Positions 3,107 through 22,037 of a stretch of 30,492 nt of DNA are shown piece after piece (positions within the stretch are counted from its first letter, which is position 1; every line of letters begins with the position of its first letter). Under the pieces are notes generated by a model. That model made no database searches and was not told where the DNA came from. It worked only from the letters and a program-made list of their open reading frames with translations. The DNA is taken from IMG/VR virus record IMGVR_UViG_3300043437_000189, positions 1-30,492 of that record, one strand, 5' to 3'. Position numbers and translations under genes: made by a program. Source of the stretch: a virus.

Positions 3107-3122
3107 TTATCGTAACCGATAA
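3107..3122. promoter_or_regulatory. Dispersed palindromic site 1 (perfect)
   Basis: TTATCGTAACCGATAA. It is the first of eleven copies of TTATCGTWWMCGATAA and lies between the terminator at 3073 and the promoter at 3153. CGATAA recurs as a half site in the spacer of that promoter (3159-3164), so a bound protein could affect early transcription. Confidence 0.75.
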
Positions 3123-6032: not shown

Positions 6033-7013
6033 ATGAAAAAGAAACCAGAATTAGAATTGTTCAGTCCAACACAAGAGGGAGTCATTGTCCCTCTGTCAAC
6101 CTACCTCCGTCACATGGGGGAGTTCGTTAAAACCGAATGGCCGGGTATCAACATCACTGAAGCTCACATTAAGAAAGCATGGGGCAAACTTCAGAAGAAC
6201 GAATACCTCGGCGACGATGCGCCAGATGAAATGCTGGAGATGTTTGAGAAGATGTCCGCTGACTTGGATATGGCCGAAGAAATGGCAGAAGAACGCTTGG
6301 CTAACCCAGTAGTAGAAGCAGAAGAAGTTGAAGTAGAACTGACCGAAGATGAGCCAGTCAACGCATCCCTCGCCCTTGTGGAGAGCGTTAAAGATGGGTT
6401 GGAACTCAGTTCATTCACTCAGAAGTTCGATATTGGATCAGGAATGACTCAGTGCGTTCCTAAAGGTAAAGTCGAAATGAAAGACTGGGTAGCAGCATTT
6501 GCCTTCGGACTTACTTTGGAGTCGGGCGCACAATGGATCATCGGTGATTCAGTGGTAGCCTTGGAGAATGCGGGGCATGAAGATGTAGTCAACCAACTCT
6601 GCTCCAACTTCAAGAAGTCTTATCCAACTGTCTCCGGTTACGCCCGTGCTTGCCGCGCCTTCCCTGCTGACAAGCGTGATGCTACGCTTCCGTTCACAGT
6701 CTATCGTGAAATCGGAAACGCAAATTTCGGAGATGAAAGCACAAAGAAACAGAATGAACTTCTTGAAGCAGCGAAGAACGAGAAGCTATCCTCTACCGAA
6801 GTAAGGAACCGAGTGCGTAGCGAGCAGGGTAAAGACGATAAACCATCCGGTCATCGCTTCCTTCTCCTCAATGTCGGTAACTTCAGCAACTCAGAAGTTC
6901 TCCGCACGATGCCCGAAGAAGTGCAAGAACACCAACTCTTGATCGACCTTGGCGACAAGTCATGGTTTGATCCAGCCGAAGGTGAATGGTTGAAATTCTT
7001 GAAAGAACAATAA
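6033..7013 (+). CDS. ParB-like DNA-binding protein (putative)
   Basis: The protein has 326 residues. The N-terminal ~85 residues are helical, followed by an acidic linker (91-110). The central part (about 165-265) follows the plan of phage/plasmid HTH proteins: WIIGDSVVAL, a helix with SYPTVSGYARACRAFPADKRD, VYREIGNA, and LLEAAKNEKLSSTEVRNRVR. Proteins with this layout are usually ParB-like or replication-linked DNA binders. The leader (CTAAACACAAATACAAC before ATG) lacks an SD. It lies between SSB and the Acb2-like gene. It is a candidate ligand for the eleven dispersed palindromes. The HTH inference is moderate, the target speculative. Confidence 0.45.
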   Translation: MKKKPELELFSPTQEGVIVPLSTYLRHMGEFVKTEWPGINITEAHIKKAWGKLQKNEYLGDDAPDEMLEMFEKMSADLDMAEEMAEERLANPVVEAEEVEVELTEDEPVNASLALVESVKDGLELSSFTQKFDIGSGMTQCVPKGKVEMKDWVAAFAFGLTLESGAQWIIGDSVVALENAGHEDVVNQLCSNFKKSYPTVSGYARACRAFPADKRDATLPFTVYREIGNANFGDESTKKQNELLEAAKNEKLSSTEVRNRVRSEQGKDDKPSGHRFLLLNVGNFSNSEVLRTMPEEVQEHQLLIDLGDKSWFDPAEGEWLKFLKEQ

Positions 7014-10966: not shown

Positions 10967-11326
10967 TTAGAATGAGGAAACAATCACGCCGCCGTCGAAC
11001 TCGATAAGTTGCCCGTGGTCTTGAATGTATTCGCGTATTTTCTCATCTAGCGTATCATCATCATCATCGGAATCGGCCCCGATATCATCGGCCCAGCTAT
11101 TGCGCGAAGTAGTGCCGAAATACTCATTAGCGAATTCTCGAAGACTGGAATATTCTCCGAAATCACAGCGTATAGAGCAAACATCTAGTTCAAGCTCTTC
11201 GCCCGTGCTCTCCTCATATTCTTCAAGATATTCAGCCAGTGCAAGCGATCCGTTATAAGACCAGCGGGCGCAAGTGTCGTTTTTTAGTGCATCGGCGATT
11301 TGGTAGGTATTCAATGTCATTTTCAT
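10967..11326 (-). CDS. Acidic conserved hypothetical protein
   Basis: 119 residues, strongly acidic, with EYLEEYEESTGEELELDV (33-50), a CSIRCDFGEYSSLREFANEYF segment and a DSDDDDDTLDE run near 86-96. The EYLEEYEESTGEE...LD motif is shared by a common family of uncharacterised phage and bacterial proteins. The charge would suit DNA mimicry, but there is no direct evidence. The leader is A/C-rich (CTAAACCTAAAAAATACCTATAAC) and has no SD. Confidence 0.65.
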   Translation of the reverse strand: MKMTLNTYQIADALKNDTCARWSYNGSLALAEYLEEYEESTGEELELDVCSIRCDFGEYSSLREFANEYFGTTSRNSWADDIGADSDDDDDTLDEKIREYIQDHGQLIEFDGGVIVSSF

Positions 11327-11370
11327 GTTATAGGTATTTTTTAGGTTTAGGTTTTATGTTATGGGGGAAA

Positions 11371-11652
11371 TTACATTCTTTCGTTGCAAACTATGCGGGA
11401 AACATAGCTTGCGCCGTCTCGATAGTATGTTTCAAGGTCAGCGTGTAATTCTTGCAAGGTTTCATCGATGCTTTCGCAATCGTCGCGCAAGATGTAGCCG
11501 GACTCTAAAAAGCCCACATTGCAAGCCGAGCCGAAAACAAGCTTTGTATCGGTTGCCAATACTTCGAAGTATTCACCGCTTTCAAGTTCAAGGATTCCGA
11601 GATAATCGGCGTTTGTTGTATTTGATACGCTCCACTGTGTTTGGGTTGTCAT
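11371..11652 (-). CDS. Hypothetical protein
   Basis: 93 residues (MTTQTQWSVSNTTNADYLGILELESGEYFEVLATDTKLVFG...), mainly beta at the N-terminus and a helix (SIDETLQELHADLETYYRDG) at residues 61-80. The N-terminal half reads like a small barrel that presents a value or ligand, but no family is recognised. The leader ATATATAAC before ATG lacks an SD, as at 11326. Confidence 0.6.
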   Translation of the reverse strand: MTTQTQWSVSNTTNADYLGILELESGEYFEVLATDTKLVFGSACNVGFLESGYILRDDCESIDETLQELHADLETYYRDGASYVSRIVCNERM

Positions 11653-11673
11653 GTTATATATAGGGTTGAGTTT

Positions 11674-11820
11674 TTAGTTCTGGGTTGAGATTAACTTTGC
11701 AAGAGCATCAAAAGCCGATTGCAATTTTTCTGTTGGTTGGTTGGTTCTTTTCGCATCAATGAGTTTAATGTTCAGAGACGCGAGTTTCATTTTCAGTGCA
11801 TGAGTTTGATTTTTGTTCAT
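11674..11820 (-). CDS. Small hypothetical protein (48 aa), first gene of its operon
   Basis: MNKNQTHALKMKLASLNIKLIDAKRTNQPTEKLQSAFDALAKLISTQN is almost entirely helical and basic, and could form a two-helix hairpin. It is the first gene after the minus-strand promoter at 11946-11974. The leader contains a CACTG...CAGTG hairpin. No family was recognised. Confidence 0.5.
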   Translation of the reverse strand: MNKNQTHALKMKLASLNIKLIDAKRTNQPTEKLQSAFDALAKLISTQN

Positions 11821-11945
11821 GTTCAATATGGGTTGATTTCACACTGACATTTTACCAGTGCGAAAAGTTTTTTTATCTCAAAGATCAAATTGTGAAATTA
11901 TCCTCAGAGGCTCATTCTAAGCGCATCCGCGAACATCACTCGCAC

Positions 11946-11974
11946 ACTATCGCAAAACATAGTCACGCTGTCAA
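11946..11974 (-). promoter_or_regulatory. Minus-strand promoter for the 10030-11820 operon
   Basis: TTGACA (11974-11969), a 17-bp spacer and GATAGT (11951-11946). The predicted start near 11939 leaves a leader of about 120 nt with a hairpin near 11841-11861. Confidence 0.5.
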
Positions 11975-12029
11975 TGGTTTTTTATTTATTTTTTTTAGAT
12001 ATGGTGCAAGCAAGTCTCGTTCCACTCTT

Positions 12030-12067
12030 ATATCGTTATATAGCGATATTTACCATACTAAGTATGG
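12030..12067. repeat. Compound inverted repeat, copy 1
   Basis: Two palindromes side by side: ATATCG-N8-CGATAT (12030-12049) and CCATACTAAGTATGG (12053-12067). The same 38-bp arrangement recurs 72 bp later with seven differences. It lies upstream of the promoter at 11974 and downstream of the tiny gene at 12171. Confidence 0.6.
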
Positions 12068-12101
12068 CAAGAACATCATTAGCAGGTCTTGTGCCATCGA
12101 T

Positions 12102-12139
12102 ATATCGCTAAACAGCGATATTTGCCATATTGCGTATGG
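12102..12139. repeat. Compound inverted repeat, copy 2
   Basis: ATATCGC-N6-GCGATAT (12102-12121) is followed by GCCATA-N5-TATGGC (12124-12140). Bases are conserved in the pairing arms and differ mainly in the loops, as expected for protein-binding palindromes or structured RNA. The TATCG/CGATA half sites resemble those of the dispersed 16-bp palindrome but are spaced wider. Confidence 0.6.
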
Positions 12140-12170
12140 CATAGTTTCTCGGCATGATGAAATCGGTATT

Positions 12171-12320
12171 TCACCCAATGCCGATACACCAGCCGATTGA
12201 AACAAACACGATAGCGGCCAACGTAGCGCAAAGATAATTGCAACTCGCTTGCAATATACGCTGATCCTTCTTGAGATTGATAACCTCTGATAATGACATA
12301 GCGTCGATAATGGACATCAT
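12171..12320 (-). CDS. Tiny membrane protein (49 aa)
   Basis: MMSIIDAMSLSEVINLKKDQRILQ is followed by a hydrophobic helix NYLCATLAAIVFVSIGWCIGIG. The frame is open from two adjacent ATGs (12320 and 12317) and fills an otherwise empty minus-strand interval. There is no strong SD. A single-span membrane protein of unknown role, alone between two repeat regions. Confidence 0.5.
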   Translation of the reverse strand: MMSIIDAMSLSEVINLKKDQRILQASCNYLCATLAAIVFVSIGWCIGIG

Positions 12321-12396
12321 GCCTGTCTCAACAAGCCCAGTGATTAAGAACCTCGTTAGATGTTAGCACGTGAATTGGTTTTTATCCAAGCCCGCC

Positions 12397-12456
12397 ACGC
12401 TGTGACGCCGGCAACGTGTGAGACTATACTAAGCAGAGACGCTGCGACACCGGCAA
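12397..12456. repeat. Direct repeat pair, 18 bp, 42 bp apart
   Basis: ACGCTGTGACGCCGGCAA (12397-12414) and ACGCTGCGACACCGGCAA (12439-12456) match at 16 of 18 bases. The 42-bp offset keeps any reading frame. Confidence 0.5.
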
Positions 12457-12586
12457 GGCAGGGCATGGGCCTAAGGAATCTATTTTTATATGGCAGGCAG
12501 ACCCCACTACCCCTCTCCCCCACCATGCCCAGCGCGCCAGCTCCCAATGCGGAAACCCCTCTCCCCATAAAAACTGCCTTTTTGTA

Positions 12587-12607
12587 TGTCAATATAGTCT
12601 ATTGACA
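12587..12607. promoter_or_regulatory. Back-to-back TTGACA boxes (divergent promoter candidates)
   Basis: TGTCAA (12587-12592, minus-strand -35) and TTGACA (12602-12607, plus-strand -35) form an inverted repeat with a 9-bp gap. The plus-strand box is in the 13-mer CTATTGACAAGTC, also found at 21671-21683 on the other strand. The minus -10 candidate is TATGGG at 17 bp. No plus-strand gene follows. Confidence 0.35.
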
Positions 12608-12608
12608 A

Positions 12609-12649
12609 GTCTTATGTCTTATGTCCTATGTCTTATGCTAATGTCGTAT
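12609..12649 (+). repeat. Tandem heptamer array, GTCTTAT
   Basis: GTCTTAT at 12609, 12616 and 12630, GTCCTAT at 12623, a degenerate 6-bp unit GCTAAT at 12637 and GTCGTAT at 12643 run head to tail directly after a TTGACA box. Confidence 0.55.
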
Positions 12650-12713
12650 GGTTGTCTTTAATTGTATTTTTGGTGCTGAAATACAAATCTGAATGCTTAA
12701 ATTGCATTTTCTA

Positions 12714-12729
12714 CTACTCACATGAGTAG
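12714..12729 (-). terminator. Inverted repeat at the end of the long minus operon
   Basis: CTACTCA (12714-12720) and TGAGTAG (12723-12729) form a short hairpin that overlaps the TAG stop of the last gene. There is no clear T-run, so termination is possible but not certain. Confidence 0.35.
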
Positions 12730-13259
12730 ATAGTCTCTTGGAGTTTGAGTTTGGGTAGGGTAGTGGGGAGGGTATAGCTTTTGTCTATGAAGGCTACTCT
12801 ATTGGTGGGTTGGATGGTTAGCCTTCCGTTGGTGAGTTCTATGAAGATGAATTCTTTGTCTTGGTCTGGGCTATCTGACCAGCCATCGTTTAGGTGGGCG
12901 GTGGAGAACAGGTAGGTTCCCAGTAGGATGTTTTGCTTTACCTTTACTGATACTGGCATTCCTCTTAGTATTGGGTTCTGGAGTATGGTGAAGTTGTATG
13001 AGTAGCAGTCCCAGAGTTGGCTTTCTTCTATACGCCAGTTTTCGATTGAGTTCTCTTTGAACCTTACTGCGTTTGGTGGGATGTTTCTGTAGAGTGCGCC
13101 GCCTTCGCGTAGGATGACGTTTATTCCCCATGCTCTGCTTGGTATGCTGGTTAGTCCTACCCACATGGCTTCTACTGGGCCGATTGGTTTTTCGTGTGTG
13201 TATTCGCTATCTATCCAGATGTAGCGATGAGTTGGCAGTGCGCCGATTTTTGTATTCAT
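12714..13259 (-). CDS. Conserved phage hypothetical protein, last gene of the early operon
   Basis: 181 residues (MNTKIGALPTHRYIWIDSEYTHEKPIGPVEAMWVGLTSIPSRAWGINVILREGGALYRNIPPNAVRF...). The stretch GPVEAMWVGLTSIPSRAWG...GALYRNIPP and the later LWDCYSYNF look like a phage protein family of unknown function. Mainly beta-strand, no membrane segment. Its ATG is 1 nt from a perfect dispersed palindrome that fills the gap to the gene upstream, so its expression could be controlled separately. Confidence 0.65.
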   Translation of the reverse strand: MNTKIGALPTHRYIWIDSEYTHEKPIGPVEAMWVGLTSIPSRAWGINVILREGGALYRNIPPNAVRFKENSIENWRIEESQLWDCYSYNFTILQNPILRGMPVSVKVKQNILLGTYLFSTAHLNDGWSDSPDQDKEFIFIELTNGRLTIQPTNRVAFIDKSYTLPTTLPKLKLQETIYSCE

Positions 13260-13260
13260 G

Positions 13261-13276
13261 TTATCGTTACCGATAA
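13261..13276. promoter_or_regulatory. Dispersed palindromic site 5 (perfect, intergenic)
   Basis: TTATCGTTACCGATAA fills almost the whole 17-nt gap between the stop of the gene ending at 13277 and the ATG at 13259. Confidence 0.75.
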
Positions 13277-13459
13277 TTAGAGTTCTCTATTTTTTAGTTT
13301 CATATTGGTTGATGTGAAGGTTAGCCATACCCTTTGGCGGTTTCCTCTGGTATCGGTTATTTCTCCGAGGTTGAACATCCTGTCTTTGTGTTCATCTTCA
13401 GATTTGAATTTATCTACTGTGTCTTTTATTAGTTGGAGTATTTCTTGTTCTTGTTTCAT
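13277..13459 (-). CDS. Small hypothetical protein
   Basis: 60 residues: MKQEQEILQLIKDTVDKFKSEDEHKDRMF is a charged helix, followed by short strands (LGEITDTRGNRQRVWLTFTST). It starts in an ATGA overlap with the 52-aa gene. No family recognised. Confidence 0.6.
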   Translation of the reverse strand: MKQEQEILQLIKDTVDKFKSEDEHKDRMFNLGEITDTRGNRQRVWLTFTSTNMKLKNREL

Positions 13460-13614
13460 ATTGAATGTGCTTTTGAATTATTATTAGATGCCGCCCATCC
13501 GTGTCGGAAGGATGTGCAGATTACATCTTGTGAAAACAGCCATATATTAAAGTCTTCGTATTTGTCTGTTAACCACGGATAGTAATTTAAGAAGGCTTGG
13601 TGACAGTCTTTCAT
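13456..13614 (-). CDS. Small hypothetical protein (52 aa)
   Basis: MKDCHQAFLNYYPWLTDKYEDFNIWLFSQDVICTSFRHGWAASNNNSKAHSI. The aromatic, helical layout with a final FRHGWAAS motif resembles short phage proteins whose C-terminus reads 'AWxAA'. Both ends form ATGA overlaps, which strongly support the frame. Function unknown. Confidence 0.65.
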   Translation of the reverse strand: MKDCHQAFLNYYPWLTDKYEDFNIWLFSQDVICTSFRHGWAASNNNSKAHSI

Positions 13615-18791: not shown

Positions 18792-20023
18792 TAGTAAACC
18801 TCCTCAAGTTTTGAGATGTCACCACGCATGATGATTTCAGTCATGTAGTTCCTTTGGCCTCGGCGGTTCTTCTTGATCGTCAGCCTACTCTTCTCCTTAA
18901 TGTGTTCTATATACACTACTTGGTCAGAGTGCATTCCAATTGCCCGTGATTCGCGTAGTCTTCCTTCGTCATTTAACTGAGAAGCAGTCAGCATGATCGA
19001 GTTATTCTTCAATGCTGCCAGTTTTAAACGCCTTGCGATCTCCGAAATCTGGCTTTCTCTGCCTTCTTCACCATCAGATGAAATAATCTGCAAATAATCC
19101 ACAACAATTACATCTGCTCGTTTTTCTCCAACGTATCGGTTGATTTGGGCCTCAATCTCGTCAATTTCGGCTACTCCATCCACGATTTCTATGGGTAACT
19201 TGTGTAATTTCAACAATGCGGCGTTGATTTTTAGGAGTTCGTGTTGGTTTGCGTTCTTATAATCCTCTGGTTCACGCACTGGATACCCTGCCAAGTTGCA
19301 GGCCATGCGAGTTAGGATGTCTTTTGCCTTCATTTCAAGGCTGAAGAAAAGAACTGACTTGCCTTCTTCAAGATTTGCCAGTGCTGCTTGGACGAGATAG
19401 ATAGATTTTCCTCCACCAGTCTCAGAAGCTACTGTCATCATCTCTCCTTTGTGCATTCCACCCTTGAGCGCACGATCTACTTTCAGTAATCCAGTAGGAA
19501 AGAATTCCTTTACTGCTTTCCCTTCCATCTCATCGATGATTTCGATGATTAGGTCTTTGACTGGCTTTACTTTCGTCGTCCGATCTTCGGCCAAGTTCAT
19601 TATCGTTTCCGATAATCCCTTCAAATCGGCCTTACCTGCGCGTAGGTTTACTTCTTCCTTCTCCATGAGAGTAAGAACATCGCGGTATGCCTTCGTGCGG
19701 TGCAGGTGCTTCCGGTAGTCATCCGCCATGTCTTGGCAAACCTTACCCGAAGTTACTTTCATTGTGGTTAGGATTTCGTGAATCGCATCCTCTCCACCCG
19801 CTGCTTCAAGTTGTCCTGTTGCTTCTAACTCTGCGATGGCAGAAAACGGGCAGCAAACCCCTGTCCGCTGGTGAACCCCTTGGAGCGCATTAAAAACGAT
19901 TCTGTGAGCTGGTATGGCGAAATAATCACTATCCCATGTTTGTTGGGAAAGGATGTTTCTGTCGATTGCGATGAGCGACAACACTGCCGCTTCACTCTTT
20001 CGTGCTATTGGGACTTTTTTCAT
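18791..20023 (-). CDS. Replicative DNA helicase, DnaB-like
   Basis: 410 residues. The N-terminal DnaB domain (residues 5-90, EAAVLSLIAIDRNIL...) and linker precede the RecA-like C-domain with Walker A SETGGGKS (200-207), Walker B VIVVDYLQII (305-314) and the TASQLNDEGRLRESRAIG motif carrying the expected arginines near 350-360. Length is near the phage/bacterial norm (400-470). It unwinds DNA 5' to 3' ahead of the fork. The adjacent initiator gene overlaps by one base (TAATG), so loading by that initiator is likely. A perfect dispersed palindrome is inside the gene. Confidence 0.9.
   Translation of the reverse strand: MKKVPIARKSEAAVLSLIAIDRNILSQQTWDSDYFAIPAHRIVFNALQGVHQRTGVCCPFSAIAELEATGQLEAAGGEDAIHEILTTMKVTSGKVCQDMADDYRKHLHRTKAYRDVLTLMEKEEVNLRAGKADLKGLSETIMNLAEDRTTKVKPVKDLIIEIIDEMEGKAVKEFFPTGLLKVDRALKGGMHKGEMMTVASETGGGKSIYLVQAALANLEEGKSVLFFSLEMKAKDILTRMACNLAGYPVREPEDYKNANQHELLKINAALLKLHKLPIEIVDGVAEIDEIEAQINRYVGEKRADVIVVDYLQIISSDGEEGRESQISEIARRLKLAALKNNSIMLTASQLNDEGRLRESRAIGMHSDQVVYIEHIKEKSRLTIKKNRRGQRNYMTEIIMRGDISKLEEVY
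19600..19615. promoter_or_regulatory. Dispersed palindromic site 7 (perfect, intragenic)
   Basis: TTATCGTTTCCGATAA within the DnaB-like gene, where the coding strand reads LSETIM. Confidence 0.7.
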
Positions 20024-20751
20024 TAGAATGAATTGTTGTTAAAGAAACCCATTTGACTCTCGCTTTCTTTGTGGGCACGAGCTTTGTCTATCTCGCCCGC
20101 CCAGTTGTTAAGGAGGGTTTCCATTGAGCGGCGAGTGTAAACGTCTTTTTCGTTTCGTTTGGAATAGAAGTTTTCGAGTAACTTCCAATCTTCTTCACAG
20201 GTATCAAGATTTGGTTTAGCCGCCCTTATTTCTTTTGGTGTCCAGTTTGTAGTATCGCGTCTTCCGAGAAGTCGGTTTGCTCGTTGCTGAAAAGTTAAGA
20301 GATTAAGAGATAATTCTCCTTTAGTATCTCTACTATTTTCTCCCTTAGTATCTATGTTCACCTGTGGGTTGAGTCTGAGTTCACCAGCAGGTTGACTCTG
20401 ATTGCACCTGTGGGTTGAATCAGACTTCACCTGTGGGTGAACTCTGACTTCACTTGTAGATGAAGTCCCGCTTGGCAAAACAGCAAGAATTTTCCTACTT
20501 CTGCCATCGTAAGAAATTTGTTTAATCATCTTCAATGACCTCAATTTTGAAATCATGTTTGAGATGCTTGACTCTGTGCTGTGAAACATTTTTGCAAGAT
20601 AGCCATTGCTTGCAAAACATGGTTTCTCTTCAGTTCCAAGCGAACTGATTTCTGCCCACAAGCATTTTTCCATCCACGATAGCGATTGAGATTCCCATAT
20701 CTCTACTGGAACCCAAACACCGCGAAAAACCCGTTCGTTCTTTTCGCTCAT
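20023..20751 (-). CDS. Replication initiator with winged-helix domain and internal iterons
   Basis: 242 residues. Residues 1-93 form a winged-helix domain (WMEKCLWAEISSLG...CFASNGYLAKMFHSTESSISNMISKLRSLKMIKQ). Residues 94-132 are a low-complexity linker encoded by five 23-bp DNA repeats. The C-terminal part (about 150-242) contains NWTPKEIRAAK and YTRRSMETLLNNWAGEI, like the helicase-interaction region of phage initiators. This is the plan of lambda O: DNA-binding head, origin inside the gene, DnaB-contacting tail. The gene is followed directly by the DnaB-like helicase and preceded by another winged-helix gene. ATGA overlap at the start. Confidence 0.75.
   Translation of the reverse strand: MSEKNERVFRGVWVPVEIWESQSLSWMEKCLWAEISSLGTEEKPCFASNGYLAKMFHSTESSISNMISKLRSLKMIKQISYDGRSRKILAVLPSGTSSTSEVRVHPQVKSDSTHRCNQSQPAGELRLNPQVNIDTKGENSRDTKGELSLNLLTFQQRANRLLGRRDTTNWTPKEIRAAKPNLDTCEEDWKLLENFYSKRNEKDVYTRRSMETLLNNWAGEIDKARAHKESESQMGFFNNNSF
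20282..20353. repeat. AT-rich unwinding region with two 15-bp direct repeats
   Basis: The 60 bp 20291-20350 hold about 28% G+C. TTCTCCTTTAGTATC (20314-20328) and TTCTCCCTTAGTATC (20338-20352) are 24 bp apart. They adjoin the iterons on the downstream coding side, the position of the AT-rich unwinding element in lambda-type origins. Confidence 0.6.
20357..20471. repeat. Replication origin iterons, five tandem 23-bp units
   Basis: Units begin at 20357, 20380, 20403, 20426 and 20449, exactly 23 bp apart, with consensus TTCACCTGTGGGTTGA-N-TCTGA. Unit 4 has the perfect dyad TTCACC-TGTG-GGTGAA. The period is not a multiple of three, so the repeat is in the DNA rather than the protein, and the array lies inside the initiator gene. 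This is the arrangement of lambda-type origins. Confidence 0.8.
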
Positions 20752-21698: not shown

Positions 21699-22037
21699 AT
21701 GGAAATGAAACATCCATTAGAAACTGCTTATGAATCTTGCATGAGTGCCTACGAGCAATCACGCACGATCCGTTCTCTTGGACGAAAGACTTTCGCCAGC
21801 CAGCTTCGTGAAACAAGGAGATTGCTAAAATTGACTGTCCGTGAACTTGGAGATAAGATCGGCGTGACAGGATCACTGGTCAACCAGATTGAAGTAAACT
21901 CCAAGAGTATCCTAAAAAAAGAACAAGTCGAAAAAGTAATCGCCCTATGCTACAAAGAAAAACGCCCATACAGGCAAAAACAGGATTCAAAAAGCGAGGC
22001 GGAAAGCTCAGAGCAGTCTCCAGCTCCCGAAGAATAA
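21699..22037 (+). CDS. XRE-family helix-turn-helix regulator
   Basis: 112 residues. The HTH spans about 33-85: FASQLRETRRLLKLTVRELGDKIGVTGSLVNQIEVNSKS, with the xRE recognition helix GSLVNQIE. The C-terminus is charged. ATGs at 21699 and 21705 are both possible; the transcript predicted from the promoter begins near 21704, favouring a leaderless start at 21705. A phage switch or operon regulator is inferred. It is one of two candidates for binding the dispersed palindromes. It overlaps the following HNH gene by 91 nt. Confidence 0.75.
   Translation: MEMKHPLETAYESCMSAYEQSRTIRSLGRKTFASQLRETRRLLKLTVRELGDKIGVTGSLVNQIEVNSKSILKKEQVEKVIALCYKEKRPYRQKQDSKSEAESSEQSPAPEE

Follow-up and report, generated by a model that had tools for sequence, protein, structure and literature searches.

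The window, by which we mean the whole 30,492-bp virus record analyzed here, carries phage replication, terminase and other genes and contains a 61-nt direct repeat, with two copies that are 77% identical and lie 72 bp apart (copy a, 12009-12069; copy b, 12081-12141, upstream of copy a on the minus strand). Each copy is tripartite and consists, from left to right, of an element M1 (AGCANNNNYYRTKCCA), a palindrome M2 (TATCG-N8-CGATA), and a second palindrome M3 (CCATA-N5-TATGG). To the left of the repeat lies a minus-strand operon of small genes, opening with a 50-aa open reading frame (ORF) (11674-11826) that has homologues in the related genomes G003 (100%) and G024 (88%) and a weak partial one in G005, and continuing with genes for 93 aa (11371-11652) and 119 aa (10967-11326; phrog_9974). 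Homologues of the 93-aa gene are also found downstream of the unit in the distant contig L076 and in L148.

An earlier note on this DNA had described two compound palindromes, at 12030-12067 and 12102-12139, as 38-bp copies that differ mostly in their loops. Both are present and far above chance, and all seven mismatches between the 38-bp copies fall outside the palindrome arms. The duplication is thus real, with an extent that had been drawn too short, since the palindromes form the upstream two thirds of the 61-bp unit; the remaining third is M1, a sigma-54-like element that opens each unit and that the earlier note did not contain. M2 occurs twice in the window as an exact match (M2a, 12031-12048; M2b, 12103-12120), against 0.02 occurrences expected from shuffled sequence. 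With up to one mismatch allowed, M3 likewise occurs twice, both times exactly (M3a, 12053-12067; M3b, 12125-12139), against 0.47 expected, with 6 of 100 shuffles holding at least two sites. No further copy of either palindrome was found in the window.

Read leftward, M1 is TGGMAYRN4HTGCT, which corresponds to the -24/-12 consensus of sigma-54 promoters. It fits both the general sigma-54 consensus (mrNrYTGGCACG-N4-TTGCWNNw) and that of Geobacter (TTGGCACGGTTTTTGCT), as these are given in an excerpt of the published account (PMC2725144). Both window elements keep the fixed distance between GG at -24 and GC at -12 within TGGCACG-N4-TTGCW. The proximal element, P2 (TGGAACGAGACTTGCT; 12009-12024, minus strand), whose position is kept in relatives, departs from the consensus at -23 (A for C), and the distal element, P1 (TGGCACAAGACCTGCT; 12081-12096, minus strand), departs from it at -20 and -15 only. 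Both lie upstream of the leftward small-gene operon and are aimed at it, with a predicted start at about 11998 for P2, given the usual 12-nt distance, and at about 12070 for P1. Where our search pattern leaves the base free, T at -27, G at -19, T at -18, and T at -16 are the commonest bases and agree with the Geobacter consensus, though weakly in each case (11 to 16 of 32 sites; PMC2725144).

Across 91 sequence pieces (1.27 Mb), a loose M1 pattern gives 85 matches against 6 to 19 per dinucleotide shuffle (mean, 12.5; n = 10), and a strict pattern gives 49 against 1 to 8 (mean, 4.1), corresponding to enrichments of about 7-fold and 12-fold. Many of the pieces derive from related phages, so that the matches are not independent; removal of near-identical contexts leaves 68 (loose) and 39 (strict) sites. 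For this count, L001, L067, L070, L072 to L074, and L077 to L081 had been excluded as duplicates or chance matches, and nine loci had been swapped for fuller pieces from the same contigs. Reversed and complemented control patterns yield 3 unique sites each, none of them outside ORFs of at least 70 aa, compared to 68 unique sites for M1, of which 33 lie outside such ORFs. The other 35 fall within ORFs of this size, some of which are spurious (e.g., 11796-12200), and the shuffles predict that some M1 sites are background. M1 is also asymmetric (of 109 sites, 42 have TG ahead of the core and 13 have its mirror image after it), and for this reason a reading of M1 as a palindromic operator is disfavored. 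From these sequence comparisons, we regard it as likely that P1 and P2 are sigma-54-type promoters.

Relatives of the window were gathered through the right-hand gene 12714-13259 (63 viral loci), many of which share parts of the intergenic region by blastn, mostly at 65 to 95% identity. Counting the window, 18 of 25 loci have M1 upstream of the leftward operon, 13 of them in at least two copies (L027 entered this count with one copy and has two by another scan), with copy-to-copy spacings of 34 to 37, 48 to 49, 71 to 72, or 130 bp. Two of the seven loci without M1 (L006 and L018) are cut contigs, and five are uncut. Distances from L016 were not used in this positional comparison, as its zero point fell on an unrelated match. 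M1 is retained where M2 and M3 are missing (L016, L020, L022, L026, and L027) and is the most constant part of the unit.

Genomes of a sister clade carry M1 at multiple positions, and most of these sites precede a gene of matching strand. One of these genomes, G017, has seven sites in a stretch of about 8 kb, of which six are outside ORFs. Over a set of four genomes (G002 having no site), 10 of 11 sites are followed by an ORF on their own strand, the exception being in G007, and 4 of the 11 fall within ORFs of at least 45 aa; the corresponding strand agreement is 5 of 5 in L030 and 4 of 5 in L032. By eye, GGCA-N5-TGCC inverted repeats, perhaps sites of another regulator, are seen near sigma-54-like sites in the sister-clade contig L084 (6700-6960) and in L076 (1450-1600). 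A tRNA scan of 29 pieces gave matches in two sister-clade genomes, with two tRNAs apiece.

M2 and M3 lie about two helical turns apart, upstream of each -24/-12 element, their centers being at -41.5 and -62 from P2 in copy a and at the same distances from P1 in copy b. The gap between M1 and M2 is 6 bp in all eight pattern matches (seven stretches, two of which are one virus), with 2 to 20 bp permitted, and 7 bp in the sequence of L009; M2 lies about 57 to 65 bp above M1 in L069 and L076 and is also farther off in L015. Over 13 aligned copies, none of the 15 base pairs of the two palindromes has changes in both partners, and the natural partners do not pair better than shuffled ones. The half-sites are kept and compensatory changes are lacking, which favors protein half-sites over RNA hairpins, and M2 and M3 are probably DNA-binding sites for proteins. 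Part of this invariance was selected, since the pattern that retrieved four of the aligned loci (L068, L069, L071, and L076) itself contained the M3 core and CGATR; the left TATCG arm, which it did not contain, is exact in 12 of 13 copies. L071 and L075 have identical sequence and were treated as one virus.

A pattern comprising the end of M2 together with M3 is found in 12 stretches among viral contigs, ten of them in relatives, including several loci already gathered; the L070 and L079 matches were judged from their context to be due to chance. The pattern CTTGGCAYRNNNNATGCTAYGNAAA is found in three viral stretches, two in the known genomes G017 and G018 and a third (L150) inside a long ORF, which we judged to be a chance match. 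Together with the chance character of the matches to a similar pattern in GTDB genomes (below), this distribution suggests that the unit is a feature of this phage group.

The palindromes had been proposed to be kin to a dispersed 14-mer, TATCG-N4-CGATA, which occurs 10 times in the window against 0.04 expected (at 3108, 5555, 8733, 13262, 16206, 19601, 21259, 22877, 25036, and 29881, several of these inside genes). The dispersed sites are spaced more evenly than random (gap coefficient of variation, 0.37; P = 0.003), as is the case with P < 0.05 in five of seven genomes. This kinship is not supported, since the spacing in M2 is 8 rather than 4 and each site type occurs without the other. Of 25 records, 19 contain the TATCGKWWMCGATA form of the dispersed site, at 10 to 29 copies each, and six contain none; M3 is present without any dispersed site in G023 (69 kb) and in the 9.5-kb fragment L076, and 7 of the 19 dispersed-site records lack M2 and M3 by the patterns used (the scan covered all but the last 125 bases of G008, 1,169 of G021, and 879 of G019). 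What stands of the earlier functional proposal is that a DNA site, duplicated and probably regulatory, lies upstream of the leftward operon's promoter.

The distribution of the unit supports neither of the two phage proteins previously suggested as binders. For the XRE protein (21699-22037), tblastn (E value of 1e-4) finds no homologue in G023 or in L076, and the ParB-like protein (6033-7013) has a homologue of only 34% identity in G023 and is 86 to 93% identical in the seven phages that lack the palindromes. As phages carry the unit without having these regulators in common, M2 and M3 are more likely to be bound by a host protein. We found neither the enhancer-binding protein domain PF00158 nor the RpoN DNA-binding domain PF04552 in 25 (possibly incomplete) phage records, and any sigma-54 machinery would therefore be that of the host. 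The integrase domain PF00589, which would be expected of a temperate phage with a prophage immunity operator, was likewise found in none of the 25 records, which may be fragments. Searches of a phage collection for cultured relatives gave no match for the terminase and portal or for 11700-12750 as DNA; gene 12714-13259 matched 106 records, all below 60% identity, with the matches listed annotated as PurM, ferredoxin, or hypothetical. The portal had no match in 294 and 296 genomes of the two phyla available for searching, a result that shows little about the host.

Just downstream of P2 lies a sigma-70-like promoter, P3 (TTGACA-N17-GATAGT; 11946-11974, minus strand), with its -35 element at +29 of P2 and with an A-tract between the two (11978-11996, minus strand), possibly an UP element, that has a similar counterpart in relatives. 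The earlier note had placed a minus-strand promoter at 11974; the site agrees with the consensus at 10 of 12 positions, a match that says little by itself, as six sigma-70-like sites are found in 11300-13500 against 5.4 in shuffles. Its conservation in relatives says more: of the 18 M1-bearing loci, the window among them, 10 have the -35 element at +28, +29, or +38, L012 has it at +98, and 7 have no exact TGTCAA nearby.

The explanation that we prefer, and consider somewhat probable, is a doubled module that combines sigma-54-type promoters with M2/M3 regulatory protein sites for the leftward operon. Two tandem promoter modules would drive this operon of small phage genes, each made up, on the minus strand, of a -24/-12 promoter with the regulatory sites M2 and M3 upstream. 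P1 and P2 would be occupied by host RNA polymerase with sigma-54. M2 and M3 would be bound by one regulator of the host or by two, possibly of the enhancer-binding class, leading to activation, a component of the explanation that we advance only tentatively. The copy b palindromes, centered at -113.5 and -134 from P2, lie at a distance from it that is usual for upstream activator sites. P3 would allow expression independently of the sigma-54 route. The sequence elements, their conservation, their orientation, and the statistics are what the analysis shows; from these we infer the use of sigma-54, a binding protein, and an effect on transcription. Against the module stand the 6-bp gap between M2 and the promoter, which does not resemble an enhancer that tolerates varied distances (although M2 is farther off in L015, L069, and L076), the absence of M1 from five uncut relatives, the A at -23 of P2, the many M1 sites within ORFs, the lack of enhancer-binding protein and RpoN domains in the phage records, and the possibility that P3 suffices for the operon.

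Like bacterial sigma-54 (RpoN) promoters, the elements described here have GG at -24 and GC at -12 within TGGCAYR-N4-HTGCT, T at -11, a matching orientation toward genes, and upstream inverted repeats. They differ in being located in phages, 25 records of which yielded neither RpoN nor an enhancer-binding protein, in forming two complete promoter-plus-site modules in tandem, and in having M2 abut the promoter. Phages mostly begin transcription with the housekeeping sigma factor, and sigma-54-type promoters ahead of small, probably early phage genes would couple infection to the metabolic state of the host. More speculatively, this group of uncultured and perhaps virulent phages may entrust part of its early gene program to the host sigma-54 regulon, with a doubled promoter-plus-enhancer module in the clade of the window and several single-gene promoters in the sister clade. 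If so, infection would be gated by a nutrient or stress signal that is read by a host enhancer-binding protein. The promoter motif could also help to narrow the host to rpoN-bearing bacteria. Our search of titles and beginnings of abstracts in the open-licence literature, with a few phrasings, returned no paper on sigma-54 promoters in phage genomes. Pectobacterium phage Q19 is likewise tied to sigma-54 transcription and, according to an excerpt of its description, encodes a putative sigma-54-like factor (gp2, by HHpred only), whereas only promoter-like elements are found here (PMC7693777).

An unlikely alternative is that the repeat is an operator array, in which a phage or host repressor or activator on M2 and M3 (and perhaps on the GCA-N7-TGC core of M1) controls P3 and the likeness to sigma-54 promoters is incidental. 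The half-sites of M2 and M3 are indeed conserved in the manner of dimer sites, the spacing of the sigma-70-like promoter is kept in 10 of 18 loci, and phage regulators such as the XRE protein exist. Tandem palindromic sites also adjoin an early phage promoter in the OR/OL operators of lambda-type phages, from which the present arrangement differs in having two unlike palindromes per unit, no recognized repressor gene alongside, and relatives that retain the promoter region without the palindromes. It speaks against an operator array that M1 is asymmetric and mostly oriented toward genes, that M1 persists where M2 and M3 are lost, and that the unit is carried by G023 and the fragment L076, in which XRE homologues were not found.

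We consider it very unlikely that the palindromes function as RNA hairpins, whether in a P1 leader or in a noncoding RNA. The region 12009-12141 folds better than shuffled sequence on both strands (z = -3.2 and -4.4), as palindromic DNA would do anyway, and copy b is upstream of P1 and hence would lie outside the P1 and P2 transcripts. The RNA element was rejected on the pair counts given above together with Rfam, in which no family reached the gathering score and one regional match lay below threshold (E value of 0.52).

A replication origin or parS-like partition site with iterons is more improbable still. Such a role would suit repeated palindromes in an 850-bp gene-poor stretch of a phage encoding a protein earlier called ParB-like; this protein has no ParB family match in Pfam or PHROGs at an E value of 0.1, and neither palindrome is found in relatives such as G003 and G001. 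A better candidate for the origin lies inside gene 20023-20751, beside the dnaB gene, where we observe 23-bp tandem repeats (20359-20473); the lambda O gene holds comparable origin repeats. The least credible explanation is the insertion of a mobile or host-derived dispersed repeat (REP/MITE-like), which would agree with the variable copy number and position among relatives and is disfavored by the single pair of loci in the window and by a search of GTDB genomes for M2 plus the start of M3, which gave two matches, both judged from context to be due to chance.

The palindromes had been placed in a gene-poor stretch between a gene at 12171 and the promoter at 11974. This 42-aa ORF (12171-12299, minus strand) appears unconserved as a gene, since of nine relatives with a tblastn match five have an in-frame stop and the other four match only from a point inside the ORF onward, and coding readings of it and of 11796-12200 (plus strand) were rejected on account of stops in several relatives. 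As DNA, 12171-12299 is conserved, and in the window it reads as a membrane-like ORF. Farther right, before the stop of the 12714 gene is reached, we observe a conserved C-rich block (AAACCCCTCTCCCC-AKAAAAACTG; 12440-12607) with a TTGACA-bearing palindrome (12587-12607) common to some relatives. Short repeats around TAATGTCKTATG (12600-12660) vary in number among relatives, as judged by eye. A simple pattern finds Shine-Dalgarno-like sequences at 6 of the 29 window genes, a hint of a host that uses few of them.
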